Shown here: one piece after another, positions 1-49,459 of the stretch
Layout of the letters: each line of letters starts with the position of its first letter
How positions within the stretch are numbered: the stretch's first letter is position 1
Assembly (NCBI GenBank): GCA_011033025.1
Contig: WFMF01000253.1
Location: 186,001 to 250,000 of the forward strand
DNA: 64,000 bases
Direction of reading: 5' to 3'
Origin: Beroe forskalii
Lineage: Eukaryota; Ctenophora; Nuda; Beroida; Beroidae
Made by a program: the position numbers and the translations under genes
Notes under the pieces: generated by a model
Database searches by the model: none
What the model was told of the DNA's origin: nothing
What the model saw: only the letters and a program-made list of their open reading frames with translations

Positions 1-30
1 ACAGAGCATGTTTTAACATCACCATGTGAG

Positions 31-298
31 CAGTGTAACATTTCAGAGTGTTTTAGAAGCGCCACAGAATCAGACCCTTCTGACAGTGTAACATTTCAGA
101 GTGTTTTAGAAGCGCCACAGAATCAGACCCTTCTGACAGTGTAACATTTCAGAGTGTTTTAGAAGCGCCACAGAATCAGACCATCCTGACAGTGTAACAT
201 ATTTCAGAGTGTTTTAGAAGCGCCACAGAATCAGACCCTTCTGACAGTGTAACATTTCAGAGTGTTTTAGAAGCGCCACAGAATCAGACCCTTCTGAC
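31..298 (+). repeat. 53-bp minisatellite carrying copies of a PDE9 3' splice site
   Basis: Five tandem copies of a 53-bp unit (starts at 31, 84, 137, 190 and 245). Each unit holds GCCACAG followed by AATCAGACC and CTTCTGACA, which is the acceptor and first bases of the PDE9 exon that follows directly. Only the last copy runs on into coding sequence. The upstream copies are thus duplicated, potentially usable acceptor sites. Confidence 0.9.
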
Positions 299-3200
299 AT
301 CCTGAAGCTGTACAACGCCAGTAACTCCCTAACCAACATCTCCCCCCGTCTGCTGGCTAACACTGCAGAGACCCGGTACACTCTGAAAGTGGTGGGAGCT
401 AAGCAGTGCCTCAGCAGTGATGGTAAGTGTGGTGACGTCATTGTCAGGGGTTAGGGATCGTTCACATATTACGTAATCAATTTTTGGCCGATTTCAACCC
501 CCCTCCCCCTTGTAATCAAGTTTACAGTAGTTGTATTTGTTACAATAACATGTGACGTAATCATTTGGAAACCCCCTCCCCCTCTAGGTGATTACGTAAT
601 ATGTGAACGATCCCTTATAATGGGAAATTGGTGACGTCATTATCAGGTGGTAGAAATTCATAAAATATCGCACCTTCAAGATTCGTAGGAGCACTGCATT
701 ATAGTACACACCAACGTATATTTGTCAAATCAATCTATTGCACTGTGACTCTCTTGTCTGTTGTCGATGTTGCTTTTTACACGACGGAGTACTAATGCCC
801 CCACCGAGAGCTGTAAGAGAGAAGTAGGCGGTTCAACTTATCAGCTTATTACGTTATGCTGTGATGATGACGTCATCTCAACCGTCTATTTCCCGTGCGC
901 GGCGTTTAAATGCCCCCTCCGAGAGCTGTTTGATATTGATTCCTGAGCAGTGGTAGCTGGTGTGACGTCATCGATTCACATTTCTGAGATATGATCATGA
1001 CGTCATCAATGCTCTACTCGTATTCTGGTCGAATGTCTCATCGCGTTATTAATATAAGCCACGTACGTGGTATACAGACATTCAAATGTGCAGGAATACA
1101 AACATAAGGTGCGGGAATACTAAACTTGGCGCGCCCCTGGGGAGGTACGGGATTCGTTCCCATCCGCAGTAGCCCTGGTGACTGGGACCTCCCAGTGGGA
1201 GGTCCCGTGCTGGGGTTTCTGTTTGGATTTCCTGTAGATTAATCCCCCGTTAAGTTGTAAACTTGGCGCGGTAAGTATTGTTCGTCTATGTCACGTGAAC
1301 TAAAACTTACCTTGCGCAGTAACTGGAGCAGTCTACTAACTTGAACTTTCAGTTCTTCCTGCAGGAGACACACTATGAACACATTACTGAAAGTTTCAGT
1401 TACTGCCCCAGTTTTTGTTCACTTTCAGACATAGACGTCCATTACTTACTGCGCCGAGTTTAATAGAGTAATAAAGGTTGAGCAGACATGTAGACTATAT
1501 TAACTGTATGGTGGAGCTCATATTATACTGTATTTCATGAATATAATTTATATGTCTTACTCGCTCACTAGTAGATTCTCAAGTATACAGCGCACACAGT
1601 GTACAGTATTATTCTCTACAGTCATACATAGATTCAAGCAATTGTAGATAAACAATGGAAATACAATTTGTCAGTTGTACGCATAGCACTGCTTTCAGTG
1701 CGGAGTAGGTACTAGTAACGATTTTTACTATAATTTTTCACCTCTAAGAAACCCATGAAAAAATAAATTTGGTTTAAATGAGGCCGAATTGTTAATCTCT
1801 GATCTATCTTTGAGGTCAAAAATCCCAAAAATAGCCTACGAATGAACCAAGTTTTAAAAAAGAACCAAAATTTTCAATGTTAGGATCATCAGAGCATTGC
1901 GCCCAAACAGCTGTATTGTACCCAAATGCTTTAAATTCGGATGATAGACACTATTTAACCATGAAAAAAACCACAAGATTTTGTTGGTGTGTTATTCGGG
2001 GGAATGGTTAAATACTTCCTTATTTATAGTTATTGAATCACTCATTTATTCTATCTGCTGTAATGTGACAGTGTGACGGCGTGATGCGCTATTTATAGAT
2101 ATATCATTTTGAAGCAGCGTGTCAATACCTGTATACAAATTAATTAATGCTTCAAAAATATAATATCATATCGTGCATGATTATTGATTAGGCGCATAGT
2201 AAGCCAATCACATATTGTAAGCCAATCATGAAACGTTATTTTTCATTAATTACCTACGACACTGTAATGTAGGCGCATATATTATTAAAGTTTACCCGCG
2301 GCCCTCTTTCGTTCGTCCAATCAGCGCACAGAACCATACCAATCCTGCGCGCTCATTGGTCAAACCTAGCTTTGAGCTGTGGGTAAAAATAATTATATCG
2401 CGAAATATGTCTTTCAGTTGCGTTTTGACGTCATCATTTGGTTTTCTAAATAAGATAGTGACGTCATGTTTGAATGGTTTGTGCTCCAGCGTATGAAATA
2501 CTGAAATATTACAATGGCATGGCAACAAAATACTTATACCTATTACTCTATTAGAAGAGTTAATTCCATCTAGCAATCATTTACGATTTATTAAAATCAA
2601 CATATTTCGACCCGTAGCCCAAATATGGACCCGATCAGACAAGCTTCTATTGTAGACAGTAAACACCGATGAAAATGTCAGAGAGTTCTACAACTATATA
2701 TATTACCTAATGGCGTCATAATACGCAGAATTGTCAAATATTATCCGTTACGGGCGGCCTATTGGATTCAGGATTTACCACTTTATAACTTTATAGTTCA
2801 AGGATTATTAAGCTTTCCCAGGACAATGCGTGTGTGTCAAAACTCCTCCTACTTTCACGTGTATCCGGCGAGGCATAGCTGTCCTGACGTCATCAAGTGA
2901 CTATTCTAAGCCCTACTAATGACGTCATGAAGTGACTATTCTAAGTTCTGCCAATGCCGTAGTGCTCTGCTGTTCTATACAGCATTATTGTTGCATTGTA
3001 CAGTGTCCAGCTGTCAACAACGTCTTGGTATGTATTGAGATCGGTGCTCATTGCGTATGTAATGTAATGTATGTATGTATGTAGATGCGCCTCCGAAGAT
3101 TCGCTGTGCTGATGGAAAAGGCAAAGTTTGTCCTCCTTATTACTGGATTAATGGGTGTTGAAGGGTGACGTCATTACCGCACCTTGAAGCGGTGAATGGA

Positions 3201-9200: not shown

Positions 9201-12200
9201 ACTTCACCTTGTCGGTGCTGCCTGCCCCAAATGGCAGCCTCATCACATCACCACACAACACCTCCCTACTCCTCTTCACCATCCCATCCACAAATCTATT
9301 ATCATCTGAAGGTAAATGGCAGGAAATTCTACCCATTCACTCTAACGCTAGGAATTTTGCGCAGCATAATCATAGCAATCACCAAATTCATTACTACTCT
9401 TCAGGTTACTGAACCTGGAGAAGAACATAGTCCTTAACTCTGGTGACACGCCCCCGGCAGTCTGGGACATGCGAGCTAAAGTTGAGAACCTGCGAGAAAA
9501 GCTGGAAAGTGTGGAGCATATGAGTTGGTTGGGGCTCTACAAGGATATTGATAAGTATGTGATCTTGACAAAAGAGAATATTTAGAGATTTTGAAGTTCA
9601 CATTTCACAAGCACATGGGTGCTGATTTTGTTTTAAAGTAGTTTTCGGTGAAAGCTTTCTTTTATATTTCAGAAATATTTTCAGTTTTCATTTAATGGCA
9701 GGCGCAATTCTTGTTTCCTGTTTCACCCCCCCCCCCCCCCCTTTCCATTGAATGTAACGCCGGCAGGCGCAATTCTTGTTTCCTAACCTTGTTTCATCAC
9801 CCCATCTAATGGGCCGCATCCACAGGAAAGGGTCGCATAGCAAAACTAGCAGCAATACGATTCACTGCTGTGGCACCAAGAAGACCAAAGAGAAATACCA
9901 GTACAGCACACAAGTCTTCAAGAAGTTTGAGCAACTCAGGTATATAAATTAAGTTAGATTATAACTAAATTGATCGTTTCAACTCCTGATTGATATGCTA
10001 CGCTTTCAGATACAATAAAATTTGGGACCTGAAGATATCGTAGAACGACGAAATTGATTGTCATCAAAGAACCACATCGTTTCTATTTGTACTTGTACCA
10101 TTGCATCAAAAGCTAATAAATTAAGTACTCATTTATTGCCTTCAGATCGGTAGAACTCACCGAAGCTACCCGCGAACTCCTCAAGAAGCCTACATTCGAC
10201 ATTTGGCAGTGGGAAGACAGTGAAATGCTCTACCTGTTGCAGCAGATGTTCGTGGATCTTAAGCTCGTGGAACGCCTCTACATCGAGGTACCTGACCCTT
10301 ACCCTTTCCCTAAACCTAACCCTAACCCTTACCCTAAACCTTACCCTATCCCTTACCCTAAACCTTACCCTATCCCTTACCCTAAACCTTACCCTATCCC
10401 TTACCCTAAACCTTACCCTATCCCTAACCCTAACCCTTACCCTATCCCTTACCCTAAACCTTACCCTATCCCTAACCCTAACCCTAACCCTTACCCTAAC
10501 CCTTACCCTAAACCTTTCCCTAAACCTTTCCCTAGACCTAACCCTTACCCTAAACCTATACCTAACCCTAACCCTAACCCTTACCCTAAACCTAACCCTA
10601 ACCCTTACCCTAAACCTAAACCTAACCCCAACCCTAACGGCTAACCCTAAACCTAACCCTAACCCCTACCCTAACGGCTAACCCTAAACCTAACCCTAAC
10701 CCTAAACCTAAACCTAACCCCAACCCTAACGGCTAACCCTAAACCTAACCCTAACCCCTACCCTAACGGCTAACCCTAAACCTAACCCTAACCCCTAGAT
10801 CTTAAGCTCGTGGAACGCCTCTACATTGAGGTACCTTTCCTTTACATTAAAGGAAATTCAAAAAAGTCTTATAAATTATCCTCGAAATGGGTCCAAAATT
10901 GGGATTTCGATGCTGAATCTAGATTTGTGTTGAGAAACACACTTTTTATAAACCAACATTTGACAAAATAAGCTTTTATTGAATGTCACACTGTCCTCAG
11001 CTGCCAGTACTGCAAGCCTTCCTGTACCAAGTTCACGTGAGCTACAACTACACTCCCTACCACAACTTCAGGCACTGTTTCTGTGTCTCCCAGATGATGT
11101 ACGGACTCATCTGGTTGTGCAACCTTCAGGAAACGACCGGTTGACATTTCTCAATGAATCCAGTTACGGTTTCGGTTGACTAAAAACGCCAGTTTACCGG
11201 TATTTTGGTTTCGGTTCGGTTTACCGAACGTTTCCCCTTAACGCTTAATTGCAAAATCAAAATATTCGGTTACGGTTTCGGTTGGCTTAAAACGCCTGTT
11301 TAACCGGTATTTTGGTTTCGGTTCGGTTTACCGGTCGTTTCCTACCTTCAGGACAAGCTCGATGATATCGAGATAATGACCCTGCTGGTGTCTGCGATAT
11401 GCCATGACTTGGATCACCCTGGCTACAACAATGCTTACCAGGTTAAGTTATATAGGTAACTACTAAACTCACAAAACCGTTGAACGGTTGTCGTAGTAAC
11501 CCAGTAAGTAGTAACCCAGTAACTCCCTGCTGATTGAGTGTGATCAGTCATTTTGTTAGCTGGAAGCAACGAAACTTAACTTCACGCAGTCTGAAAAAAG
11601 ATTATTCAAACTTGGGATAACCAAAATTGACAATGCGCCCATTTGCAATGTTTGCTCCAATTGACGTTACCCCTCCGGCAGGTTAACGCTAAGACTGAGC
11701 TCGCACTGCGTTACAACGACATTTCCCCGCTGGAGAACCACCATGCGGCGGTGGCATTCGAGATCCTGAGCTGCGAACAGAGCAACATCGTCAAGCACCT
11801 GCCCCATGAGGACCACAAGCGCTTCAGATCCAACACTATCAAGTGAGTTTCTAGGCAATTCCCTTGGCATTGCGGCACCTGTAATCCGTGTTTCTTACAG
11901 AATTAAAGGTGCATGACGCGATAATCATGAAAAATTAACATATACATTTTATTGGCTTAATGTGATCCTTATAGCATAACAAAAACTTGTGGTGAGTATG
12001 GGCGTGTAAATTTCATGTATTACCGGTCTAATTGGATAAACTAATTTGTGCCGGATTCAGCAATACAGCACCCTCGCTTCTGATCATGTATTGTTTACAT
12101 TGCGTTCCATGTTTCTGTTCGTGTTTAGTTTCATGTTGTGCTGTAAAATACGTGTTTCTCGTTTTAGACACCTCGACTAATTATGTACTCTTGTTAACAC

Positions 12201-15200
12201 ACTGTAATAAGGCTTTTTCGAACTGTTCAATTACCGTAATAATAGCTTAATAGTTAAAAACGAATTAAACTATGCATTTCAAGTTTCAACAATTACGAAT
12301 CTTCAGCGTTCTAACCAGTACACTCAGACACCAGTGCACTCTTAGACCAGTGTACTCTGAAACCAGTGCACTCTGATCTGAAACCAGTGCACTCTGATCT
12401 GACACCAGTGTACTCTGATCTGACACCAGTCCACTCTGACACCAATCCACTCTAACACCAGCGCATTCTTAGACCAGTGCACTCTGAAACCAGTGCACAC
12501 TGATCTGAAACCAGTGCACTCTGATCTGACACCTGTCCACTCTGATCTGACACCAGTCCACTCTGACACCAGCGCACTCTAACACCAGCGCACTCTTAGA
12601 CCAGCGCACTCTTAGACCAGTACACTGCAACACCAGCGCACTCTAATAGTAATACAAACACACCCTGAGTCTGATACCACATTAGTGCACTCAACGACCA
12701 GTACACTCTGACTCTTTGACACTGGAGAGCACTCTGACACCAGTGCACTCTAACACTACGTCATTCTGGAATATGACTCGTGTGCTTTTGACAGCAGGCA
12801 CTCTCACACGAGTTTACTCTAACACCATTACACTCTAACACCAGTGCATTCTGATACCAGCGCACTCTGAGCCTGACGCCCTGACAAGTGACACCAGTAA
12901 ATTCTAATTACAGTGACACCATTAATTGTCAGCAGTGTGCTCGGGCACCATCCAACTGTGGCTCCAGTTCACTTCACCAATGTCCAATCCACTCCGAGAG
13001 CAATGCACTCTGACACCAGTGCATTGAGCATCACACTCCAACACCAGTTCACTCTGGACCCACATGGAAATTACACTGGCTATAGTGATCCAGTCAAAAC
13101 AAATTGAATTGACTGTTGAAACTGTTCATTTTGTCGCATAAAGCATCTGTTTTTATAAATTTTTCAGCTTGACGAATCAAATGATATTAATCAATGTCAT
13201 AATTATGCGGTTGAAAAGTGGGATGTAGCACCAAGACTGTAATTATAATACAATTAGCCTTGCTGTATCGCTTGCGTACTGTTGTTGATATTGATATGCA
13301 GCGCAAGGTGCTGTATTGCTGCAGAAAACGGAATCTTTGGGGGCTCTAATTAGGGTGATCTAATTAGGCACACGCCGCAAGATATACATAGGCGTGATCC
13401 ACTAGTGATCTGCTACTATTTTAAGCAAAGTTGTTTTTTTCGTGTCATGCACCTTTAATTGCATGCAGTGTTACTTTGCCAGACGTTGCCTGGCCCCAGA
13501 ATCGGAGAGTCAGGACTCAGAGAGTCTTATTTTAAATAAATTTATTCGATTTAAAATGTCGGCCGGGCAATGTCTGGCAAGTGCTTCTGAAGACTCACAC
13601 ACGACCCTACAGGTGTATATTAGCCACGGACATGGCCCGACATAACGAGATAGTGACAGCCTTCAACAACATATCAGGGTGCTACGAAGACGGAAATCCG
13701 GAGCACAAATTACTGGTAAGTTGAGCAAATAACTTGTCAGTTGAGCAAATTACTGGTCAGTTGAGCAAGTTACTGGTCAGTTGAGAAAATTGCTGGTCAG
13801 TTGAGCAAATAACTTGTCAGTTGAGCAAATTACTGGTCAGTTGAGCAAGTTACTGGTCAGTTGAGAAAATTGCTGGTCAGTTGAGCAAATTACTGGTCAG
13901 TTGAGCAAATTACTGGTCAGGTTGAGCAAATGACTGGTCAGTTGAGCAAATGAATGGTCAGTTGAGCAAATTACTGGTTAGTTGAGCAAATTTCCTTCGG
14001 TGTATTGATATAGGACTGATAATTTGAGTTTGGAAGTATCACTTTAAGTATTCCTACTTTTCTATCAAATCTGATATCTTTATGTGGGCACCGCCACATT
14101 ATTTTTTACAAAGTAACTTATCCCCAGTTGATGGAGATATTTCTAAAAGTTTCTGATATTTCAAACGAAGCTCGACCTATGTGCGTGGCTGAGCCCTGGG
14201 TCGAATGTTTGCTCCAAGAATTCTTCATGCAGGTTTATAGACTTATAAGCGGTTGAGACGCCATTTTTTCCCTCCCCATTGGCCTTTTTGTGAATACAAA
14301 AAGGCAAATGAGAGGGTTGGCAGAGATCATGGTCTGGAAGGGTGAGAAATAGATTATGTGTATATCAGGTCCAGTTTTGCAATACAACTACTGTAATTTC
14401 TGGAAAGTGCCCGGATTGCTCCTTTATAATATCAGTCGCGAAAATGTCCCTCCGTCCCTCCGTCCGTCCCTCCGTCCCCATATCACATAAATCTTCAAAA
14501 TAACGAATTTCTTAATTCATGGAGCTGTCGGTTGTCAAAAGTATAAATCTTATAGGTTGATCTGGCCCATCCGTGCCGCATGCTCGAACTCCTAAATTAT
14601 GATAAGTTCTAAATTTAATTAGGCTGTTGAAGAATTCTTGTCTTAAAAAGTTAAAATCTTAGGTGTGAGTTGGGCGGTGGATTGGAGGAAAAGGCTTCGG
14701 TTTTGTACTAGGTTTAGTACCAAACTGCATAACTATTAGACTTTCTGCTGGATTCGACTAAGCTTGAGAAATACTATTTGCTATGAAAGACGAATATTGC
14801 TTTTTGGGACAAGAGACAGCATTGGAACAGAAAACAAAAGCACAAAATTTGAAAATCAGATAAAGAGTAATATCAACTTAGCATAAACATTTAAGAAAAT
14901 ACATCGGTGAATAAACAGTGACACAATTTGATGCGAAACGTAAACCAATTCAACAAAATGGCGCGAAATCTACAACGAACTGAGTACAACAACGAACGCG
15001 CGCGCAAGAATTTTAGAAGAAATGGCACGCCAATTCATATTCGGTGGTCGCGCGCAGCACGCGCACGAAACAATATTTATACTCTCATCACTTTAAGTTT
15101 ATAACGACTGCGTTTTGTATTATCTTATTGTGATGTTTTTTTAAGGTTACATCAAGCACCGCGGGGGAGGGAAATTAAGCGCCTGCATACGGCCTACGGG

Positions 15201-16341
15201 AACAGCAATAACTGTGTCGGTGCAGGCGCAATTCTTGTCTATTCTTGAAATAGTACCTATATTGGAATCACGGTTTTGGGATATTTTTTGGATTCTTTTG
15301 AGATGTTTCGGATTCTACAAGAAAACTTGTTTCGCTCATATATTCCTGTCGAATATTAACTTAAAATTGAAAGTTTTAATTGATCTGCCTGATCTTTCAC
15401 TCCCGATATATCTCCTCAGTCCGACGCAGAGAAGTTGGAGGGTCTCCCAGTGGCCCCCTTCATGGACAGGGAAAAGGTAACGAAACCATCAGCTCAGGTG
15501 GGATTCATCAAGTTCGTCCTGCTGCCCCTGTACGAGTCAGTTGCTGCCATGTTCCCGGAGATTAGGGTGAGTTGCTTTGTGATAATGTGATATAAGTTGC
15601 TTTGTGTTGAACTTGAAGTTGCAGCAACATCGAGATAAATATAACATGAAGTAACATGTTGAAGTTCATCTTTGTTTGGCCTCTGCGTCCCTCCCAAATG
15701 CTAAGAATAGTACCACTTTTTCCCCTATAGTACCACTTTTTCCCCTATATGATATTCTCGCCAAGCAACAAATGAAGTGTATATTCGTTTTCTCTCCCTC
15801 TAGGAACCGATTCTGACCCCCGTCAAACGGGCCCTGGTGTACTATACTGAAATGAGTGACAAGTTCGAGGCTGACAAGGCTGCCATCAAATTGAAGGAGC
15901 AGGGCAGACGGATTTCTCTGACGATAGACCCTAAGGTGATGCTCAATATGGGATTTCTAGTATCTTTCATCTGGTATCGCTGTAGATCGAATCCCGAAAT
16001 CCAAAGTCTCTGCGACTTTCGTCGGGTTATCCTCGCCCTCGGACAAAAACATACAAAGCGCGAAAATATAATAAGGATTTCCTGAACTGTAAAATCTTCT
16101 CCGTCTTGAATCCTCATTCAAGATCGTATCATTATTGATATTATTTCAGGTAGAACATCCAGTACAGCGGTTACAGCAAACAGTCTCGTCAGAAGCTCCA
16201 ACCACCGCTCAATTGACGGCGACACCACCGAACTCGGCAGACTCCGCAACATCCTCCGATGAGGGTGGGTCGTCAGAAGCAGATCCCAAAGAGGTGAAAC
16301 TCACATTGGATGACGATAAGGACGACTTAGATGAAAGCTAG
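282..16341 (+). CDS. PDE9A: PDE9-type high-affinity cGMP phosphodiesterase, 5'-partial, 13 coding blocks
   Basis: Hydrolyses cGMP to GMP in the PDE9 family. Coding blocks read from the sequence: 282-422, 4241-4286, 9405-9554, 9826-9939, 10146-10287, 11001-11129, 11352-11441, 11682-11842, 13613-13715, 14128-14232, 15420-15566, 15804-15935 and 16150-16341. Joined they give one frame of 550 codons ending in TAG. All junctions are GT-AG with matching phase except 11129/11352, where a MITE interrupts the exon. Catalytic signatures: [11 protein letters not shown] (metal-binding H), [12 protein letters not shown] (HD motif), [30 protein letters not shown] and [10 protein letters not shown]. The N-terminal regulatory part ([17 protein letters not shown]) also fits PDE9. 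The last exon is an acidic, Ser-rich tail. The start codon lies before the window. The C-terminal five exons recur inverted at 61976-63800. The family call is firm; whether this copy is functional is doubtful because of the in-frame TGA at 11142 in the MITE. Confidence 0.93.
800..935. mobile_element. small palindromic element carrying TGACGTCA
   Basis: Imperfect inverted repeat: AGTAGGCGGTT on the left and AACCGTCTATTTCCCGTGCG on the right around a TGACGTCA at 868. The same architecture (AATAGGCGGT / ACCGCCTATTTCTCG with central TGACGTCA) recurs at 33740-33838, so this looks like a dispersed MITE-like family. No target duplication could be fixed. Confidence 0.5.
963..1005. repeat. 35-bp TGACGTCA dimer
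   Basis: Two TGACGTCA palindromes whose starts (963 and 998) are 35 bp apart, in the first PDE9 intron. One of a recurrent set with the same spacing. Confidence 0.7.
1258..1462. mobile_element. palindromic MITE-like element
   Basis: About 45-bp imperfect terminal inverted repeats. The left end starts TAAACTTGGCGCGGTAAGTA and the right end closes CTTACTGCGCCGAGTTTA. Both arms include GTCTATGTC followed by GTGAAC-like sequence. It lies within a PDE9 intron and is non-coding. Confidence 0.6.
2885..2962. repeat. 35-bp repeat carrying TGACGTCA, 2 intact copies plus 1 decayed
   Basis: Units start at 2885, 2920 and 2955. The shared body is GTGACTATTCTAAG. The third copy has TGCCGTAG in place of the palindrome. 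Confidence 0.75.
5633..5770. mobile_element. hairpin element with about 60-bp inverted repeats
   Basis: Left arm: GAGTACTTTATTC, then CTCTTTTGACTCAATG and TACA. Right arm: TGTACCATTGAGTCAAAAGAG and GGAATAAAGTACT. The arms pair almost throughout, with a short loop. A partial relative (TACTTGTACCATT with ATCAAAAGC) lies at 10088-10130. Non-coding MITE-like element. Confidence 0.6.
6622..6803 (+). repeat. about 50-bp tandem repeat, 4 copies
   Basis: Four copies of a unit centred on TATAGGTAGATCACATTAAT followed by TATGGCATG, with variable spacers. Confidence 0.8.
7128..7275 (+). repeat. 62-bp tandem repeat, about 2.4 copies
   Basis: GAAGTCATCAG starts at 7128, 7190 and 7252, each followed by the same CTATTGAAAATTGATG sequence. 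Confidence 0.85.
7721..8190 (+). repeat. 17-bp minisatellite
   Basis: About 27 copies of GGTACCTTATTAACAAC. A variant unit ending GAGGAC appears twice with a fixed spacing, showing a higher-order repeat. The last copies degrade to GACAAATTATTAACAAC. Confidence 0.93.
8270..8470 (+). repeat. 55-bp tandem repeat, 3 copies
   Basis: GACGTTGACACCACTCTGCA starts near 8325, 8380 and 8435, with GTGCACATACCAA in each unit. Confidence 0.85.
10288..10797 (+). repeat. interstitial telomere-like tract (CCCTAA/CCCTTA variants)
   Basis: About 510 bp of C-rich hexamer repeats close to the animal telomere repeat CCCTAA, with many CCCTTA, CCCTAAA and CCCTATC variants. A higher-order unit containing AACGGCTAACCC occurs in its last third. 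It starts two bases into the donor of the exon ending at 10287 and stops at a duplicated copy of that exon end. Open frames across it ([16 protein letters not shown]) are artefacts of the repeat. Confidence 0.92.
10798..10836 (+). repeat. duplicate of a PDE9 exon end and donor
   Basis: The 39 bp are identical to 10255-10293 except one base: coding [11 protein letters not shown] followed by GTACCT. They are preceded by CCCCTAG, so the piece looks like a mini-exon with its own acceptor and donor. It flanks the telomere-like tract as a direct repeat. Confidence 0.9.
11129..11342. mobile_element. hAT-like MITE inserted in the PDE9 HD-domain exon
   Basis: 214 bp with perfect 13-bp terminal inverted repeats: GGAAACGACCGGT at the left, ACCGGTCGTTTCC at the right. 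Flanks are an 8-bp target duplication with one mismatch, AACCTTCA (11121-11128) and TACCTTCA (11343-11350). Internally there are two copies of a ~108-bp unit rich in GGTTTCGGTTCGGTTTACCG. Reading the host exon through it meets TGA at 11142-11144. Removing the element plus one target copy restores [12 protein letters not shown] in frame. Confidence 0.9.
11907..13454. mobile_element. TTAA-flanked non-autonomous TIR element (piggyBac-type target)
   Basis: Starts AGGTGCATGACGCG and ends CGTGTCATGCACCT, with TTAA on both sides (11903-11906 and 13455-13458). The inverted arm has the empty site AGAATTAATTGC at the equivalent place (near 63950-63965), with a single TTAA. Such TTAA duplications are typical of piggyBac (and Kolobok). 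There is no transposase frame; the interior is mostly a minisatellite. Confidence 0.9.
12310..13060. repeat. irregular minisatellite within the TTAA element
   Basis: Units of about 18-22 bp built on ACACCAGTGCACTCTG, degrading toward the right end. Part of the mobile element, not coding. Confidence 0.85.
13476..13580. mobile_element. mini TIR element, TTGCCAGACGTTGCC family
   Basis: 105 bp with ends TTGCCAGACGTTGCCTGGCC and GGCCGGGCAATGTCTGGCAA. The interior has GAGTC inverted repeats. The same insertion is in the inverted arm (63833-63937). Shorter relatives sit at 56456-56517 and 60668-60747. Confidence 0.8.
13712..13990 (+). repeat. 20-bp minisatellite made from a PDE9 5' splice site
   Basis: About 14 copies of GGTCAGTTGAGCAAATTACT. 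The unit is the exon end CAAATTACTG plus donor GTCAGT/GTAAGT of the exon ending at 13715, so each copy presents another ACTG|GTCAGT donor. An 80-bp higher-order block occurs twice. The inverted arm has far fewer copies (63465-63500 and 63661-63700). Confidence 0.92.
14270..15237 (-). mobile_element. about 970-bp dispersed element, copy 1
   Basis: Present in this PDE9 intron and, in opposite orientation, at 29999-30976; absent from the matching intron of the inverted arm. Its ends are CCCTCCCCATTGGCC and GGTGCAGGCGCAATTCTTG. It has no terminal inverted repeats and no clear protein; CCGTCCCTCCGTCC runs occur inside. Class unknown. Confidence 0.8.
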
Positions 16342-16767
16342 CAGTCCACTACTGTTAACCTAAAAGGAAGTTGTACATTTTCTTGGGTTTTTGCTGTTGG
16401 ATTCCAATCCATTGCCACGATCCGGCACAACTTGTACGAAACACGGAGTTAAGGGTTTAACCTACTCCATACAGAGCCTTCTTTTAGTTCTACGAAACAC
16501 GGAGAACCTTATTAAGGGTTTAACTTGTTCAAGCGGAGCCCTCTTTTAGTTGTGTGCACCGCATGCCTTCACTTGTCAAAACGTTCCTGCGTGGCGTTGT
16601 CAGACCCCTTCGCCTTCGGCGTGGCTGCGTAACCATCTGGGTATATCATCTGGTTAGATAAACTGAACTCTAATTGAATTGCGTTCAGATGATATGCCCT
16701 CCATCATTGTCATTGAAAAGTTCCAAGTGTGACGTTGTTCTTATTGGTCTTATTAATGTAAATAGTG

Positions 16768-16773
16768 AATAAA
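16768..16773 (+). terminator. candidate polyadenylation signal of PDE9
   Basis: AATAAA about 430 bp after the stop codon, in AT-rich sequence. It is conserved in the inverted copy (61555-61560, minus). Confidence 0.5.
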
Positions 16774-17604
16774 CTATGCACTTTCATTAATTGAGTTATG
16801 AAGCATAAACATTAAGTTTCATTAATTGAGTTAAATAATAAATTGTTTTTACTTATACGGTTCGAGTTTTTATATTATAGATGCATTATGATGCCGATGT
16901 ATACATCAATTTATTGATTAAATATTAATTGGAGTTGATTTCAAGTGAAATATCCAATGATACCAAGTTTTGATCAGAATCAAGTTTTGATCATAATTTT
17001 AGTATACTATGCTTCCTGCACAAGGAATTGTGTTATATTTTAGCGAGGTATTTAATTTTAAGCCATTTCTCAGGAAATAGGTTTGTACCTATTACTCGTT
17101 AATAAACACTCCATTTCAAGTTATTAAAGTATCGTGTGATTTTGAAGGAAGGGTTTATAGTAAACTGTGCACTTTCAGTAAAAGTGCTAACCGTGATATT
17201 ACGCACGACTGGTCAAAGGCCTGAGTGTGTAATATAGCATTAAAAACAGAGGCCGATGGTTTTATTGCAGGTAAATGTACTGAGTTATATCATTATCATG
17301 GTTAAGTTTGCACTCTTTACTCGTTACTAAACCCTTCATTTAAAATATCATATTAACACAATGACAAAGTTTTGAACATATTGATGTATCTGAAAGCAAA
17401 TTTGGAATTGAAATTTTCATTTATTCTCAAATTTATGCGATTTATTATTTATATTTGTAGGATTTCATACTCTCATTTTGAAAATGAAAAAATACAGTAT
17501 ACAGTTACACACGCGATCACAGAATTGGTATAATATAATTACGATGTACTATAAGTTTTTGTAATTACCCTAATATTAATAAGGTTTGGTTTAAATCAGG
17601 TAAT
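16774..17604. other. AT-rich PDE9 3' flank, nothing coding seen
   Basis: No open frame of note. It is collinear with 60748-61550 in reverse complement with scattered substitutions, which is useful for measuring arm divergence. Confidence 0.6.
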
Positions 17605-17990
17605 CAGCGCCTAGATAACAGTGCGCGCGCACTTAGAAACAGTGCGCGCGCACTTAGAAACAGTGCGCGTGCACATAGAAACAGTGCGCGTGCACATAGA
17701 AACAGTGCGCACACTTAGAAACAGTGCGTGCGCACTTAAAAACAGTGCATGCGCACTTAAAAACAGTGCGTGCGCACTTAAAAACAGTGCATGCGCACTT
17801 AAAAACAGTGTGTGCGCACTTAGAAGCAGTGCGCGCGCACTTAGAAGCAGTGCGCGTGCACATAAAAATAGTGCGCGCGCACTTAGAAGCAGTGCGCGTG
17901 CACTTAAAAATAGTGCGCATGCACATAGAAACAGTACAGTGCACGCACTTAGAAACAGTGCGTGCGCGCTTCCTCAGAACAGGAAGCGCC
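17605..17990. repeat. 21-bp CG-rich minisatellite
   Basis: About 18 copies of CAGTGCGCGCGCACTTAGAAA with alternating purine-pyrimidine cores (GTGCGCGCGCAC). The unit is a multiple of three, giving spurious frames on both strands. The counterpart is 59930-60660. Confidence 0.92.
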
Positions 17991-18534
17991 GCGCGCGTAC
18001 ACACACCTATGCGGGCTTAGGAAGCGCTTTTGGAAACACTGACACAGTGATTTAAGTGAATGCGCACTTGCACATTGCCAATTGCCATTAGGTTTTTTTT
18101 ATTACTTTATTTCAATTTTATATTCACTCTCCTTCCTTAAACTTTATAATAAATTTAATTTTGATTGATATGTCATTTACTTATTCTGTCATTGGGATAC
18201 ACCATCCATTATGGATGTTTGGTGCTATTACGAAATGTATAATATTTTAACCTCTTCGAAGATTTTTCCCCATTTATAAAAAGCCTGTCATTTTTCTAGA
18301 AATATTGATAGTGCAAATTGAAATTTCTTGTTCAATTTGTTTTATTTTATTGGTTGAATATTTTGCCGTCTGCATGTGTTTGGTTACTATATTACTGTTG
18401 TGAATTGTTGTGCTCTGACTTACCAACGTACCTTGATAATAGGATAGATGTCTCTGTCATCCTCTGAAGTATCAAGCTTGGATTATGGAATATGGATAAG
18501 CTCTCCAAATCATCAAACCTTTGTTCAGCTTCCA

Positions 18535-19560: not shown

Positions 19561-20400
19561 CGGAGCTGATTTGCAGAATAAAGGTACTTTTTTCTCTATA
19601 GAAGCTAAGAAGAATCACATTAAGATAGGAATCGTGTAAAAATAATTTTCAATTAAATCATGAAGCAATCAAGTTCCTCCTTACCTTAAAACAACTTCTT
19701 ATATTCAGGTTGCTAGTCCGCTCTGTCATCTGATCATTCTACCTAGTTCATTCATATTAAACTCTGCACATCTTCAAAACGATGATCAACACCTCCCTCC
19801 CTGAAAATATATAATCTGATGTGGAACCTTCATTCTAGAGCTCGATGGCACTTCAAAAGACTCCCTCCCGACTCTCATGCCCACCCTCTCATCGAAGGTT
19901 AGTAACTTCTTTGTCTGTATTGACTGATTCCCCCTCTCATCAGATTGCCCAGGGTTTGTATCGTTTAATTCCCCCTCTCATCGGAATGCACTGTGTTAGC
20001 ATCGTCTAATTCCCCCTTTCATCAGAATACACTGTGTTTGTATCGTCTAATTCCCCCTATCGTCAGAATGTACTGTGTTTGTATCGTCTAATTCCCCTCT
20101 TATGAGAATGCACTGTGTTTATATAGTCTAATTCCCCTCTTATCAGAATATATTGAATTTGTATCGTCTAATTCGCCCTCTTATCAGGATATTCTGTGTT
20201 TGCATCGTTTAATTCCCCCTCTCATCAGAATGCACTGTGTTAGCATCGTCTAATTCCCCCTTTCATCAGAATGTACTGTGTTTGTATCGTTTAATTCCCC
20301 CTTTCATCAGAATGCACTGTGTTAGCATCGTCTAATTCCCACTCTCATCAGAATGTACTCTGTTTGTATCGTCTTATTCCCCCTCTCGTCAGAATGCACT

Positions 20401-24104: not shown

Positions 24105-24235
24105 TATAATTCCCCCTCTCATAAGAATGTACTGTGTTTGTATCGTCTAATTCCCCCTTTCATCAGAATGTACTTTATTAGTGTCGTTTAATTCCTGTCT
24201 TATCAGAATGTTCTGTCTAATTCCTCCTCAGCCCC

Positions 24236-33838: not shown

Positions 33839-34115
33839 TAAACAACTGCAGAAAGTAATTCATGGAACTAATCGAATTTGCTTTCATCAAGGGCAGTAAG
33901 TAAGTAATTATGCTCAGCATTAGAACAATTCTAGTTTCTACCATCTAATGCATTCTTATCAGTCATTCAGTCACGGGGGTTATATGCTAAAGCATATCAA
34001 ATGGTGATAAGAACACAAAATTCGTGTTAAAATTCTCTGCTGACGTGAACCATAGCAAAACGCACATACATCTTACAGCTGCACCTCGCTTCAGTTCTCT
34101 CAACCTTCTCTTGAG

Positions 34116-35441
34116 ATGCGCATTTCCCTTGTAGTAATCTGCCTCCTAGTAGGCGTGAGTTACAGCAGCTCGTCTGTAGAATCCTGGCTAGAGACAGCTA
34201 AAGAAGAGACAAGCACTGGGGGTGGTAAGATCTGGGCGGTGTTGGTGGCTGGGTCCTCTGGTTTCTGGAACTACAGACACCAGGCTGATGTGTGCCACTT
34301 GTACCAGTTACTGACCAGGAAGCATGGAATCCCCAGACAGCAGATAATTGTCATGATGATGAACGACATTGCCTACAACGAGGAAAACCCCACTCCAGGT
34401 GTAATAGTGAACGCGTTGCATGGAGTGGATGTCTACGAGGGGACCATGATAGACTACATGCAAAAGGACGTTACCCCAGAGAACTTCCTGAACATCTTGA
34501 TGGGTCGCCGGATGGGCTATGGCAGCATGAAAACTCTCCGCTCGGGACCGAATGACTACGTGTTCGTGAACTTCGTGGACCACGGAGACACAGGAATCCT
34601 GGGTTTCCCTAACGATGAGCTCCACTTGAAGGACCTGACTACCACCCTGAATCATATGCACGAGCAGAAGCGGTACAAGCAGATGCTGTGGTATGTGGAG
34701 GCTTGCTTCTCCGGCTCCATGTTCCAGAACCTCTCTCCCGACATGAACATCACCGCCCACACGGCCGCTAACGCAGAAGAGAGCAGCTACGCGTGCGTGT
34801 TCGACAAGAAACGGGGCACGTATCTGGGGGACTGCTGGAGTCTCAACTGGCTGAACAACACGGAGCAGATCTTCCCCCACCTCGAGCAGGAGACAGTGGA
34901 GGAGCAGTACGAGGCAGTGAAGAAACTGACGACAGAGAGTCATGCCATGATATACGGGGATTTGGATGTCATTTACCATGAGCCAATCTCCACATTCCTG
35001 GGACAGGGAAATGCACCTGGATATGACAGTCAGGTAGTCTCAGACTTCTCCCCCGTCAGAGAAGCCTCGGTTGCGACCCCTGACGCACTACTGGACACCT
35101 TGAGACGGAGACAGGAGGCTCTGTTACCGGAAGTAGATGAGGAGTTGGAAGCTGAGATTCGCTACCACGAGAAGACGGAGCAGAAGGTTCAGGAGGTTTT
35201 GAAGGAGATAGTGCTGAGAGTTGCTCCTGAGGGAATGTTGGCAGCGTTCCAGAGTTCCAGACAGAGCATCTATCATCCTGGGTGTAACAAGGAAGTGCTG
35301 AGTGCGTTCTACAACACTTGCTGGAGGGCTCAGAAACACCCTTACATCACCAAATACACGTACTGGCTCAGCAACCTCTGCAACTCATACAGGAGTGAGG
35401 AGATCCTACAGGCTATAGCCGCTTCCTGCAGCTCCAATTAG
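34116..35441 (+). CDS. LGMN: legumain-like asparaginyl endopeptidase (peptidase C13), intronless
   Basis: 441 residues, about the length of animal legumain preproenzymes. Legumain cleaves after Asn (and Asp at low pH) in lysosomes or secretory compartments. Signal peptide at 1-16 (MRISLVVICLLVGVSY). GSSGFWNYRHQADVCH is at 46-61 and NDIAYNEENPTPG at 83-95. The catalytic His is in VDHGDTG (His156) and the catalytic Cys in EACFSGSMF (Cys197). ESSYACVFDKKRGTYLGD follows, then an acidic linker and a C-terminal prodomain with four cysteines, as in the legumain activity-modulation domain. The frame is intact from the Met at 34116, with no introns, unlike the intron-rich neighbours, which suggests a retrocopy; no poly(A) tract or flanking repeat was seen. 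HGD replaces the more usual HGS after the catalytic His. Confidence 0.96.
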   Translation: MRISLVVICLLVGVSYSSSSVESWLETAKEETSTGGGKIWAVLVAGSSGFWNYRHQADVCHLYQLLTRKHGIPRQQIIVMMMNDIAYNEENPTPGVIVNALHGVDVYEGTMIDYMQKDVTPENFLNILMGRRMGYGSMKTLRSGPNDYVFVNFVDHGDTGILGFPNDELHLKDLTTTLNHMHEQKRYKQMLWYVEACFSGSMFQNLSPDMNITAHTAANAEESSYACVFDKKRGTYLGDCWSLNWLNNTEQIFPHLEQETVEEQYEAVKKLTTESHAMIYGDLDVIYHEPISTFLGQGNAPGYDSQVVSDFSPVREASVATPDALLDTLRRRQEALLPEVDEELEAEIRYHEKTEQKVQEVLKEIVLRVAPEGMLAAFQSSRQSIYHPGCNKEVLSAFYNTCWRAQKHPYITKYTYWLSNLCNSYRSEEILQAIAASCSSN

Positions 35442-37882: not shown

Positions 37883-37980
37883 AGCAACCATCGGTCCAAC
37901 TCGACCTGAAATATCAAGGTTGCTTAGGTTGGATATTTTTTCTGTTAGCAACCATCGGCCCAACTCGACCTGAAATATCA
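37883..37980 (-). repeat. two duplicated acceptor/exon-start copies
   Basis: Each copy (near 37883-37915 and 37946-37980) reads on the minus strand ATATTTCAG, GTCGAGTTGG and CCGATGGTTGCT, matching the true exon start at 37832 (TATTTCAG, GAAGAGTCGG, GCCGATGGTTGCT). These are decoy 3' splice sites in the upstream intron. Confidence 0.85.
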
Positions 37981-37983
37981 AAG

Positions 37984-43655: not shown

Positions 43656-46600
43656 TCACCGCGGGAAGGCCTCAGAGGCCAGGGCTCTGGCTGCCGCTTT
43701 CACCACCCACGTAGCGATAGTTAACTGCTTCCTTACCTGGAATAAGAAGGTATTCGGTCATTTGGCCTATCTGGACATATTTTGGCCTAACCTGGATATA
43801 TTTTGGCCTACCAACGGTTAGGGTCATATCAGGGGAGAGATAAATTCAAAAATTATGTGAGGTTTAGTCGATAGGCCAAATGTCCATTTAGAACGCGACG
43901 TTAGAACGCGACGTTAGAACGCGACGTTAGAACTTCAGTTGCTGTCTACATTGTGGACATTTCAGCTGTTCTCAGAACTTCGTTAGAATGCTGCTGTTAA
44001 CTCACGGCATTCCAGTCCGCTGCAGTTCCACTCTTCTTGGCTGTGGTCACAGCGTCGTAGAGACCAGGGAATATAGACCCGCTGTAGGAGTCCAGGAGAC
44101 TTGGGGCGAATACCATGTGCCTGAAAAGTAGGATATAAAGATGAAACAAGGATGTGACAAGGATGCGACAAGGACATGCCTGAAAAGACAGACAAGATGT
44201 TAGAATACCATGTGCCTGAGTAGTTAGATGTAAAGGTGGACAAGGATGAGACAAGAATAGTGAGATGGTACAAAGATGAGACGAGGACAGTAAGATAGCA
44301 AGTTGCAAGGATGGGACTAGGACGAGACAAGGACATTCCGCAAATAAGAGGCTAGGTTTTAGAATACCATGTGCCTGAAAATTGAATGGTTTCAAAGATT
44401 TGGGAAGAGAGGCTAGGTGGTAGAATACCATGTGCCTGAATAGGTAGATGTAAAGATGGGAAAATGAGACAAGGATAAGTAGATAGTGAGATGGTACAAG
44501 GATGTGACAAAGATTTGACAAGGATCGTAAGATACTTAAATGGGACACGGATGAGAAAATGTTTTGCAAGGTTTTACAAGGTTTTTTATAATTTCAGTGA
44601 AGCAGCCTACCTTTTGTGGGGGCGTTCTGGGAGGCCCTGCGGCACGATGAAACTCCGCTCCATCACCAGCATCTTGTCGTTAAACCGCCGCACGTCCATG
44701 GCGTTAGACCTGAGGAGGTGACGTCATTATCAGGGGTTAGAGTGGTAAGTTGATGACGTCATTATCAGGGGTTAGAGTGACGAGTTTACAATGAATAATG
44801 ATATTTCATTCATTCGATCTTGAAATGCAGAAGGGGTCATTAACCGTTATTTTTTGAAGTATTTTAGAAGACTTTTTTGAATTTTTGATTGATTCACAGA
44901 ACCTGCCATTCTTTGGTTATCACAGAATAGAAATATCTGCTGTATTTTTCGAATGACAAAAAAAGTAAAAGGGGTCAAGACATTTGGCGAACCCTGTATT
45001 ATTTCTATTTGCTCCAATAATTATGTCGCAATCCTGACCCCGCCCACTATTTCCTTAACCTCCTCTTCTTGGAATCTGTAATCGTTCAGCACAAAGCATT
45101 CTTGCATTGCAGAGTTTAGACCCCCTGGGTGACGTCCTAACCACGATCAATAGTGTGCAATTGATGAAATCGAACCGTGCATTGTTCGAAAGTTGGAGCT
45201 TAATCTGAAGCCTATGATAACTGACTTGTCCACAAGTCATGTTGACCACATGGAATTCTGCAGTCAATATTTTCTTACAACGGTTGATTGTTACTGCTTT
45301 GTTGTCACTGGAATTTCAAGAATTCCAGCTGTGTTTGTAGTTGATTGCACAATTTGGAGATGATCTGCAATCTGCATTCTTCCTGAGTCTGTAGTAAGTC
45401 TACTGTACCATTTTCAATCTTTTGAAGTTTTCTTTTCAAGCTTACTTTTCTTTTTTTCAAGCCAAGTTTCCTTTTCAAGCCCACTTGATTGTTCTTGCAC
45501 AATTGAAGCTTGTTTGCTTATTTACAGACGCTTGCACAATCTGGTGTTTGTCTGTATAGTCTACCTCTCATTACATTATTTCAACCTCAATACATCGCCA
45601 TCTAAATGTTTTTTCATATTTTGTTCACAAGTTCACAATACCACTTATCTGCTTTGTAATGGAGCCCTTAATTAATTAGTTTTTGGTCTCTCCATTCTCC
45701 AGCATACTGCTATATAACTTTTTTGGTCAAAATTAGAAAATTAATTACAGCCTGGGGTTGTAGATAGAGTTCAGTCGGTGGCCCTTGGTAAATTATTTTC
45801 ATAGCTACGATTGGTCAGTGATCAATCGTGATCAATGATCACGTGACCATAAAGATCTGTGATCAATGATCACGTGACCATTAGATCTGCGGGCGGAGCT
45901 AACCGTCAAGAACTCTATTGTAGTATCCTGGAGACAGCACACAAACAGCACAATGCCAGCACCTTACATTCTACCATGCTGTCAAGGAGAATAGTTGCTG
46001 AAAATGACGTCATTATCATAGTTAAACGTGTTGAATTGATGACGTCACTTTGTTTTCCTCCGCAAGGCCTTCATGTAACGTGGATACCAGGCAAAGTGCT
46101 CATTATTGTGTTATTAGCGCACAAAGCACTCCATAGACTTTATAGCTTTACAGGTAGTGTTTTTGTTTGCTGCTGCTCCTTCTAGAGTGTGTTTGTGTGT
46201 ATCGTGGAGGCTTTTGTAAAGCACATGATCCCTTAATATCGGTTCTTACTTTATCGGCATTTTTACCGGCTTTCTGGAAAGAAATTGAAAAGTACATTTG
46301 GTCATTAAGTTTGGACCTGAGGTGTCATCATATTATCAATAGTTTTGTTTCTTTCTAAGTAGTTAAGTTCTAAGACTTGATTGCGTCCTTAACTGCCCAT
46401 GTTTTGTAAACCACCTTTTTGTGTTTTCATCCAACTCACAGCTGTCCATGTTTTGTAAATCACCTTTTTGTGTTTTCGTATCTGCTTCTGGAGTTCTCGT
46501 ATTCCTCTGCGTTTTTAACCAGCAGATCCAGCACCTTATCGAACAGAGCTGAAATGTAACGTGTGTTAGTGAGTTAGTGGTCACACATGATTGCGTGTTT

Positions 46601-49459
46601 CACTCACACAAATCAATAAACTGCGTGTTTCACGCACACGAAGCAATCAATTGCGTGTTTCACTCACACAAATCAATAAACCGCGTGTTTCACTCACACG
46701 GACAATAAACTGCGTGTTTCACTCACTCAAATCAATCAACTGGGTCCTGAGATCGTCCTTCAAACTACTCTCGTCGATGGTATTAACTATGAAGGAGGCG
46801 TAGGCGTTAGCATCCAGCGGCACTAGTCGGTTGCAAGACAACTCCATGATAAGAGTTGCAGATACTTCAGCCACCGACCTAGGAGGAGGGGGGAATAAGT
46901 CGCCTTGATATTTTATACTTTAACGAGACGTATTCATGTGGAACGAATTTTGGGGGGTTTACAAAATAAAATCACCATATTTTCGCACTCGACTAATCGA
47001 CGTTGCATTCATGTTCATACGTTCACATTTAATCTATATAAATTAATTTTCAAAACAACAGGCTGGCCGGGATTTATTCTTTATTACTGAAAGCATGTTT
47101 CCTATTTACCAAACACAATAGGCAATTCAATTAGTGTGGTGGTAGCTTAGAATAGTCTTTGTCCTCTACAAAAGCATTGAGTTAGGGGCGTTCTATTTAC
47201 TAAAAGCTACAGGAATTTATACCTTGTCGCCCGCATGTCTGGGTCTGCATACTTGGACAGATAGTCAATGTTGTCATACTCCGTATGGTAAGTGAAGTAA
47301 TCTCCAACCACCGTCAAATCTATACTCGAAACCCCTGAAATAGTCACTGTAAGACTACAAGTCTATACTTGAAATCCCTGAAATAATCACTGTGAGACTA
47401 CATGGGAATACAAGTCTATACTTGATGCAGTTGACACCCCTAAAATAATGGCTTGTGAGACAATAAATCTATACTTGTACCCCTGGAATATTCACTTGGA
47501 CCCAATTAAATAGGGTCAACTTTGGAATACCTTTCGAGGGCACAGCTCCGGGATATATCCGGTTCTGACCCGCAGCCCATAGGATCAGTATGGACCCAAT
47601 CAGACAAAGGTCTATGTATTGAAGTGTTTGAGACACCTGTGAAAACGTTAAAATCAAAAATAGCTAGGTATAACTCATGCAAGTTGCAACTATTAATATC
47701 TTACCTGCTGATCCTATGAAAGAGGCGTAATCCGAACCGGAGCCGAGTGTTTTAAGAACAGGCACATCACCAGTTGGATTAGACGTAGAAAGGGGGAAAT
47801 ATTTCAATCAACTAAGCTAACCGATACTGATGTAGTAATTCATTTCAATTCCTAGTTATTCACCAAAGATCTCACTGACATTTCACGACTTGATTAGTCG
47901 ATTAGCTAATTGCCTAGCTACTCACGTTGATTTCCACTGATCGTAAAAGGTAGCTCCCTTGCAGTCGGAGACACTACTGCATCCTGCCCTCTTTGTTGCT
48001 CTTTCTAGCAAAGGCCTGATGAAAAGTTATTATTTGATGTATCAAACATCACGAAAAAGAAATTTTTCTCTGGTAGTTTAAAGAATAATAATTTTAAGTT
48101 TTTGAAATATATTCACAAATCTCAAAAGCCACAAAAAGATCATTTGAAAAGGCATGCTGACAGTCAAAGGTGTTTGTTGAGTTGGTCTACTGTCAGTCGT
48201 CTTGCTGGGTCACGGTGTAGGGCATTCTGGTATCAAGGGCTGCTAGTGACTGAAATACTGGTTTACATGAGTTAGGGTGGCTGCTGGTAGGTTACCTGAA
48301 GTTAGGAGTGGCTGCTTACCTGAAGTTAGGAGTGGCTGCTGGTAGCTTACCTGAAGTTAGGAGTGGCTGCTGATAGGTTACCTGAAGTTAGGAGTGGCTG
48401 CTGGTAGGTTACCTGAAGTTAGGAGTGGCTGCTGGTAGGTTACCTGAAGTTAGGAGTGGCTGCTGGTAGGTTACCTGAAGTTTGGAGTGGCTGCTGGTAG
48501 GTTACCTGAAGTTAGGAGTGGCTGCTGATAGGTTACCTGAAGTTTAGGAGTGGCTGCTTAGTTACCTGAAGTTAGGAGTGGCTGCTTACCTGGAGGGTGG
48601 GTTACCTGAAGTTAGGAGTGGCTGCTGGTATGTTACCTGAAGTTAGGAGCGGCTGCTGGTATGTTACCTGAAGTTAGGAGTGGCTGCTGGGCTGAAGTTC
48701 AAGTTCCCTGAAGCCGCTACATCCACATTGACGTAAGCCACCATTTTCTCCTGCAGCAGAGTGATGTAGTCCTCCACAAACTCCGTGCTCCCGATAATTC
48801 CTTGCTCCTGAGAGGAAGTTCGGTGGTAGAAACCTTCATAAATCATAATCTGTAGTCTACTGTACAATTTGAAATGGCCCCCTTCATAATCTGTAAAAGT
48901 GACTACTGTATAATTTGAAATGGCCCCATCATTAATTGCTGCTAAAAACAGCCATAATTAGAGTGACTATAATAGACTCATCAGCTAAAATTAATAGCAC
49001 CAACCTCTGCTCCCCAACTAGCGAATACAATCGTTCTCCTCGGCTTCCACCCTGTCTCTCGCAGCTTCTTCAGACCATGGCCTAGCTCGTTCAGAACTGA
49101 AACACGAAGTGGAGATTTACTGATCTCGAAAATGTGAGGCATTCCAATTCCCGGGCGATAATTAAAAAAAGAGTCGAAGAATGTGAGCAGGAGTGATGGA
49201 ATCATCAAGTAAAGAACGGTGAGCAGTGAGCACACGATACTTTACAATTACCACAAGAGAAAAACACAAATTCAAGAGACAAGCAAAAATTTCTCTTGAA
49301 TCTGCGACACTTACCTGCAAGACCGGTTGTGGCGTCCACTGCCCCGTAAACCCACGTGTCTCTATGGTTACCAATCATCACCCATCTGTCCGGCTCCTGG
49401 GAGCCCTTCAGAACTCCGAAGATGTCCTCGATCTCAACCAGCTTGTACTCCAGATTCAC
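43656..49459 (-). CDS. FOLH1: glutamate carboxypeptidase II / NAALADase-like peptidase, 3' eleven exons
   Basis: M28B zinc peptidase; vertebrate relatives release glutamate from N-acetyl-aspartyl-glutamate or folyl-polyglutamate at the cell surface. Exons (minus): 49315-49459, 49005-49096, 48668-48807, 47926-48015, 47705-47784, 47223-47334, 46727-46878, 46464-46548, 44611-44709, 44006-44120 and 43656-43736. They total 1191 bp in one frame (396 residues), about the catalytic and dimerisation half of human GCPII. The metal ligands and catalytic Glu are all present: NHRDTW (His), GAVDATTG (Asp), SWGAE/EQGIIGSTE (Glu-Glu across a junction), VNVDVAASGN (Asp) and YHTEYDN (His). The end QLTIATWVVKAAARALASEA matches the family C-terminus. 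The membrane anchor and protease-associated part are not in the window. The intron before 47784 ends in AC rather than AG. The symbol is family-level; NAALAD2 is equally possible. Confidence 0.93.
44206..44440 (-). repeat. three duplicated acceptor/exon-start copies in the GCPII intron
   Basis: The true exon starts at 44120 with TTTTCAG, GCACATGGTATTC. Copies near 44207-44220, 44362-44378 and 44423-44440 repeat CAGGCACATGGTATTCT, with similar flanks, as decoy 3' splice sites. Confidence 0.88.
44719..44761. repeat. 35-bp TGACGTCA dimer beside a GCPII acceptor
   Basis: Units start at 44719 and 44754: TGACGTCATTATCAGGGGTT then AGAGTG. They begin about 10 bp upstream (in transcription) of the exon starting at 44709, so one lies in the acceptor region. 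The same body occurs after the PDE9 donor at 433 and at 632. Confidence 0.8.
46005..46047. repeat. 35-bp TGACGTCA dimer
   Basis: Palindromes at 46005 and 46040, 35 bp apart, in a GCPII intron. Confidence 0.75.
46399..46470 (-). repeat. tandem duplicate of a GCPII 5' splice site
   Basis: The exon end at 46464 (GAAAACACAAAAAG, then GTGATTTAC) is repeated about 49 bp further into the intron as GAAAACACAAAAAG, GTGGTTTAC. One decoy donor. Confidence 0.85.
46591..46726 (-). repeat. 30-bp minisatellite made from a GCPII 5' splice site
   Basis: Four copies follow the exon ending at 46727. Each carries TTGATTT followed by GTGAGTGAAACACGCA, equivalent to the real donor TTGA, GTGAGTGAAACACGCA. Confidence 0.9.
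47358..47500 (-). repeat. three duplicated acceptor/exon-start copies
   Basis: The real acceptor is GTGACTATTTCAG then GGGTTTCGAGTATAGAT (exon from 47334). Upstream copies read ATTATTTCAG, GGATTTCAAGTATAGAC; ATTATTTTAG, GGGTGTC...AAGTATAGAC; and GAATATTCCAG, GGGTACAAGTATAGAT. All keep AG|GG and AAGTATAGA. Confidence 0.85.
48265..48667 (-). repeat. about 31-bp minisatellite made from a GCPII 5' splice site
   Basis: About 13 copies on the minus strand of CCAGCAGCCACTCCTAACTT followed by CAG and GTAAC. This is the end of the exon 48668-48807 (PAATPNFR) plus its donor, so every copy offers another CTTCAG|GTAAC donor. Confidence 0.93.

Follow-up and report, generated by a model that had tools for sequence, protein, structure and literature searches.

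We asked why introns in a ctenophore genome carry rows of copies of the exon-intron boundaries beside them. The window analysed here is a 64,000-nucleotide stretch of Beroe forskalii DNA (bases 186001-250000 of the 251,020-base contig WFMF01000253.1; genome 216 Mb) in which PDE9 lies on the plus strand and GCPII on the minus strand; another PDE9 copy, in inverted orientation and ~85-97% identical to the first in aligned stretches, occupies its right end. A sequence-only reading of the window had described repeats built from the neighbouring splice junction at eight junctions in three genes, together with a ninth case around a telomere-like tract, and had suggested a genome-wide process seeded at splice junctions. 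The pattern is real, is shared by several unrelated genes and is probably ordinary in mechanism; it falls short of good evidence for seeding at splice junctions. We consider it likely that the intronic boundary copies are minisatellites of the kind called 'mirages' in amphioxus, produced by ordinary local duplication and hidden by splicing.

To locate the junctions, exons were mapped by spliced alignment, using our own aligner, to proteins of relatives: PDE9 to P0001, a PDE9 relative from short, transcript-like contigs that is 84% identical, and GCPII to the ctenophore proteins P0121 and P0122. Among the best GCPII matches are proteins of two ctenophores, Bolinopsis microptera and Mnemiopsis leidyi, each 61% identical, which suggests a ctenophore of a separate lineage. 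The intron penalty was raised, as a lower setting produced spurious micro-exons. Two acceptors of the window set were placed by hand at 11352 and 64554, the aligner's 11358 and 64548 being out of frame, and three junctions with no acceptable splice site were dropped, giving a set of 53 usable junctions. The exon frames in PDE9 and GCPII agreed with the related proteins, and these proteins fitted the outermost splice sites. A junction was scored as matched when an ungapped direct repeat with a score of at least 15 covered at least 6 bases on each side of it. Local direct repeats spanned 10 of the 53 junctions (7 donors and 3 acceptors). In block-shuffled sequence the same repeat score was reached at only 0.17% of 600 points; as repeats, the junction-spanning copies exceed the chance background.

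Three matched junctions belong to PDE9 copy 1. At the acceptor before 261, Tandem Repeats Finder (TRF) detected five copies of a 53-bp unit (31..299, plus strand) made of 16 intronic and 37 exonic bases; the exon is 261-422 by spliced alignment to P0001, and tblastn found its start again at 40, 93 and 201. This array had been correctly described as an acceptor repeat at 31-298, and the acceptor itself sits at 261, not near 298. The end of another PDE9 exon with its donor (after 10287) is the first member, at 10255..10293, of a 39-bp direct duplication whose intronic second copy (10798..10836, one mismatch in 39) lies across a telomere-like (CCCTAA)n tract (10291..10794, TRF), all on the plus strand, as the ninth case had claimed. 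The third, the donor after 13715, opens an array of 14.3 copies of a 20-bp unit with 10 exonic bases (13706..13992, plus strand). Two further junction repeats, absent from the sequence-only reading, were found in PDE9 copy 2 on the minus strand. The donor after 63698 is spanned by 2.3 units only (63662..63707), with a separate 2.8-unit piece of the repeat inside the intron (63451..63505), and the donor at 64465 lies just beyond the window end, in locus L047.

The remaining five matched junctions are in GCPII, on the minus strand. The donor after 48668 carries 13.9 copies of a 31-bp unit (48263..48690), many of them reading TTCAG/GTAAC; its intron is 48016-48667, with its far end at 48016, and is only partly filled by the array. 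The acceptor of the exon starting at 47334 has two copies of a 43-bp unit (47315..47402), and the donor after 46727 has five copies of a ~30-bp unit (46590..46742). At the donor after 46464 (46393..46477), the segment 46442-46477 is duplicated at 46393-46428 (shift -49, score 30). The acceptor of the exon starting at 44120 (44108..44443) has three dispersed copies near 44203, 44362 and 44421 (score 21). Some cases are two separated copies and not tandem arrays. Unit lengths were ~20-66 bp, inside the 10-160 bp range reported for mirages. Seven of the eight junctions listed originally were therefore repeats spanning junctions supported by alignment, namely PDE9 acceptor 261 and donor 13715, GCPII acceptors 44120 and 47334 and GCPII donors 46464, 46727 and 48668. 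The eighth, a putative acceptor of an unknown gene at 37883..37980 with no strand assigned, consists of dispersed repeat copies for which no gene or exon was supported; a Pfam search of an open reading frame ~600 bases away gave a match at E=0.11 only.

Similar structures were found in other genes of the genome, as the sequence-only reading had anticipated. We sampled junctions elsewhere, chosen without regard to repeats, from exon matches to three protein families (PDE, tyrosine kinase and myosin head); 71 intron pairs were called and 61 kept, with 10 of the 71 exon pairs removed on score or margin. In the sample used for counting repeat edges, a repeat unit spanned 8 of 163 junctions, two matches in locus L078 being excluded as exon duplication. 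Copies had been said always to lie on the intron side and to keep the AG or GT. The first held for 63 of 64 copies, the exception being L078, and the second for all 64. In L078 (G000:C225:1041609-1042105) a myosin-head exon appears to be tandemly duplicated, possibly as a mutually exclusive exon pair.

Under the explanation we favour, small local direct duplications (~20-66 bp), some with filler, would arise widely in the non-coding DNA of a repeat-rich genome and would afterwards expand or contract as arrays. If the segment first duplicated includes an exon-intron boundary, splicing at the outermost site would join the exon as before and leave the mRNA unchanged, while duplications wholly within exons would mostly be purged by selection. 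Boundaries would then look seeded because boundary duplications are tolerated while exon-internal ones are mostly removed, and extra copies would be counted as intron whatever their origin because the outermost copy that gives the same mRNA marks the edge of the spliced exon. Staggered-break fill-in may account for the duplications with filler, and slippage or unequal exchange for the arrays. The earlier suggestion that the copies are tolerated through an unchanged mRNA holds in that the outermost site still yields the same predicted mRNA; correct splicing at that site, like the molecular step, is something we infer.

Comparison of paralogues indicated how labile these repeats are. The PDE9 donor with 14.3 units in copy 1 has 2.3 units plus the separate 2.8-unit piece in copy 2. 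A junction duplication of 45 bp (33 exonic and 12 intronic bases) around ~100 bp of filler is present in copy 2 only. In the two cases with filler the copies are 39 and 45 bp long, and both lie inside the intron. The same PDE9 pair also has copy-specific repeats away from junctions, such as a 20-bp doublet at 15707-15749. Of a tandem pair of kinase genes on contig C25, with 87-91% identity in their two longest aligned stretches, one carries 7 extra copies and the other 1 at the corresponding acceptor. Judged between paralogues in PDE9 and the C25 kinases, array copy number is unstable. The paralogue data fit a history in which small duplications, some of them with filler, arise often and the arrays then turn over. 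A kinase intron in locus L053 (acceptor 1591) contained two more copies of the exon start, each with dozens of exonic bases. An origin of the PDE9 copy 2 filler from a retrotransposon was considered and rejected: the peptide GNEIADYLAK looked RNase H-like by eye, Pfam was negative and the 90 bases of filler used as a query had no genomic match other than themselves.

We then compared junctions with other positions. In the window, 31.6% of 690 interior points of short introns (~218) lay in local repeats as against 10/53 junctions, a raw comparison that overstates the intron rate because long arrays cover many intron points and a junction holds only one founding unit. The control introns included 47817-47925, although its acceptor had been dropped. 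Random points of the window lay in local repeats in 26% of 600 cases (~156) and exon points in 3.8% of 342. Elsewhere 6/122 junctions were matched, compared with 257/1683 points (15%) in introns under 1.5 kb, 77/283 points in longer introns and 7/732 exon points. A profile pooled over 175 junctions increased across the exon-intron boundary but did not peak on it: matches were found at 0/175 positions 48 bases into the exon, 16/175 (9%) at the boundary, 13-18/175 (7-10%) over intron bases 6-30 and 11-18% deeper, giving a junction/intron ratio of 0.65 (confidence interval, CI, 0.39-0.94). The nearest edges of repeat families at the 163 junctions elsewhere, counted per 20 bases, numbered 6 just inside the exon (one from L078), then 3, 6 and 4 out to 60 intronic bases and 1, 1, 3, 0, 2, 3 and 1 beyond that, where short introns end. 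Low-complexity segments were excluded from the family, edge and collapsed-unit counts. Junctions were probably matched at about the same rate as other tolerated positions.

The main rival to ordinary duplication is that arrays are founded preferentially at splice boundaries, through breaks, R-loops or repair there. We judge this unlikely, but several counts, and the splice-site conservation described further on, weigh against our explanation. Elsewhere, 5 of 28 families crossed a junction when 0.87 were expected under uniform placement (P 0.0018) or 1.2 with units of at least 20 bp (P 0.003); the excess was weakest if ancestral introns were assumed to be no longer than 200 bp (3.0 expected, P 0.18). 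For introns of at most 500 bp, 3 of 7 families crossed against 0.5-0.9 expected (P 0.010-0.046), and for introns of at most 1000 bp, 4 of 17 against 1.2-1.9 (P 0.03-0.10). In the window 10 of 40 families crossed against 2.7-7.0 expected (P <0.001 to 0.14), though the window was picked for the pattern and its excess is weak evidence. TRF arrays crossed junctions in 7 of 36 cases in the window (2.4 expected, P 0.0045) and in 3 of 25 elsewhere (1.7 expected, P 0.23). We also reduced each array to one unit, a test that needs no intron length, and left L078 out of the junctions. These collapsed units covered 4 of 116 junctions elsewhere (3.4%), or 7 of 154 (4.5%) with single-sided junctions added, as compared with 1.9% of positions in introns of at most 500 bp; in the window they covered 18.9% of junctions and 5.8-11.3% of positions. 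Two PDE9 introns in which filler separates the duplicated junction copies also speak for targeting. However, when all introns elsewhere were used, ~3.0% of positions were covered, for a ratio of 1.13 (CI 0.23-2.6), the profile had no boundary peak and the edge histogram was more or less flat near the boundary. Constraint on the exon would in addition slow the decay of boundary-anchored copies and so may inflate their share. The family result depends on the null chosen, and the sample is small. A strong junction process is unnecessary, and a mild excess of up to ~2.6-fold is compatible with the data. For the genome-wide seeded process, then, coverage (6/122 junctions against 257/1683 short-intron points), the profile and the all-intron collapsed ratio gave no support, while the family counts (5/28 against 0.87-3.0 expected) lent it some.

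Conservation of the copied splice sites bears on what the inner copies do. GT or AG was kept in 64/64 copies (two of the 64 in L078). Across 17 families the splice positions were variable in 0/34 cases as compared with 24/187 for the nearest eleven other positions, which by hand arithmetic gives P ~0.01 if positions are independent; the copies within an array are related, one exon position was equally invariant (0/17) and the test was devised after the data had been seen. L078 was excluded from the family count, and L080 yielded no copy at threshold in either count. Retention of the dinucleotide is not predicted by plain neutrality, and we treat it as a lead. A combined account, in which junctions would be mild hot spots (~2-3 fold) for founding duplications and the copied sites would be under selection as spare or recursive sites, with about one junction in 20 having a working reserve, appears improbable. 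It is quite improbable that arrays are kept because their inner copies are in use, or under selection, as redundant, alternative or recursive splice sites. Besides the invariant dinucleotides, many units at GCPII 48668 read AG/GT, like recursive splice sites. But the dinucleotide test was post hoc, copy number differs widely between paralogues, and units of 53, 20, 31, 43 and 34 bp are not multiples of three, so that using one extra unit would shift the frame, an argument that exempts the 30-bp units at 46727 and in locus L061. A general weakening of the decoy sites was also considered and rejected: the true donor of PDE9 copy 1 and that of GCPII 46464 clearly outscored their copies, the others were about equal and some copies at GCPII 48668 scored higher. 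Finally, false tandem copies in the assembly or misplaced exon edges in the gene models are very improbable as the source of the pattern, for although three junctions lacked an acceptable splice site and the edges of GCPII exons 4 and 5 disagreed between P0121 and P0122, the copies differ by substitutions, the structures recur in several unrelated contigs and the exon frames match related proteins.

Other features of the PDE9 genes were noted. The inverted duplicate pair (window 13455-20058 and 54022-63958) comprises the 3' half of PDE9 and downstream repeats, ~85-97% identical where aligned. Read by eye, an intron of copy 1 holds a ~1.55-kb insertion (window ~11907-13457) that copy 2 lacks and whose ends, AGGTGCATGAC/GTCATGCACCT, are inverted and flanked by TTAA-like sequence; a minisatellite at 12313-12870 sits within it. 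The intron after the residues NLQ (window 11120-11360; L047 ~555-790) lacks, in both copies, an in-frame donor, GT or GC, where one is expected. In copy 2, at L047 ~900-945 and with the contig end nearby, the exon-end sequence CTCTACATTGAG is apparently joined straight to the next exon, without the intron of copy 1.

Flank duplication like that around the telomere-like tract of the window was not seen in 12 other loci with such tracts, of which L085 has a tract that runs off the locus end. Flanking duplication was rejected as a rule for these tracts, as the flank matches of at least 20 bases (in L002, L086, L089, L092 and L093) were repeats of a GGCGCCTATAGGCGCC-type motif lying apart from the tract. 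Counted by eye, sequence of the AGTCCTAAATTGG type was present on at least one flank in 8 of the 12 (L002, L085, L086, L088, L089, L091, L092 and L093), and on both flanks, inverted, in about six. The combination suggests a dispersed element with a telomere-like core. Elsewhere in the window, an unbroken reading frame of 461 residues (34056-35441) is legumain-like by eye only, and a 41-bp minisatellite (TGTTTGTATCGTCTAATTCCCCC...) occurs at several places (19912-23327, 24107-24216 and 54016-54163).

Related structures have been described in other organisms. In amphioxus, the name mirages was given to tandem repeats across exon-intron boundaries in Adh3, and such repeats were found in the globins BflGb6 and BflGb9; many carry AG or GT, their number varies between haplotypes and regular splicing is reportedly undisturbed (PMC3087553). 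PGBD5 and troponin C were added as mirage genes (PMC3902484). At the sequence level, the Beroe repeats share boundary-spanning units, splice signals, intron-side copies, unstable number and unit length with mirages. As in the accounts from amphioxus, they span 5' or 3' splice boundaries, contain AG or GT and vary in copy number (PMC3087553, PMC3902484). They differ in coming from another animal group, in having a sample-based frequency (8/163) and in two cases with DNA between the copies; our description is at the sequence level, whereas the amphioxus accounts include reverse transcription PCR. In the Rogers model, introns are gained by tandem duplication of an AGGT-containing segment, with ATP2A1, fission yeast and potato RdRp as described cases (PMC4974935, PMC3629103). 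The tandem copies with splice signals beside an exon are alike in Beroe (PMC4974935, PMC3629103), but intron gain itself belongs to that model and is not claimed for the repeats here. Daphnia neointrons are reported to have direct repeats of exon-terminal sequence from staggered breaks, with inserted filler (PMC4202315), and the filler cases here resemble them in exon-terminal direct repeat and filler; the repeats described in Daphnia are 4-12 bp and at the opposite intron end, whereas the Beroe copies are longer and inside the intron (PMC4202315). In human segmental duplications, variable internal tandem repeats are minisatellites that vary from one paralogue to another and are sometimes placed at exon-intron boundaries; half of those described are in coding sequence, whereas the Beroe repeats leave the predicted mRNA unchanged (PMC2812944).

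Searches of an open-licence literature collection, judged from their result listings, showed no report of such repeats in ctenophores. Mirages, named in amphioxus, are extended here to a ctenophore, with a frequency of 8/163 junctions from a sample not chosen for repeats, and it is now explained why boundary copies look intronic whatever produced them. The paralogues, with 14 and 2 units at one donor and 7 and 1 extra copies at one acceptor, are natural material on how the spliceosome chooses among near-identical sites, and the same arrays are useful for asking whether such arrays feed intron gain.

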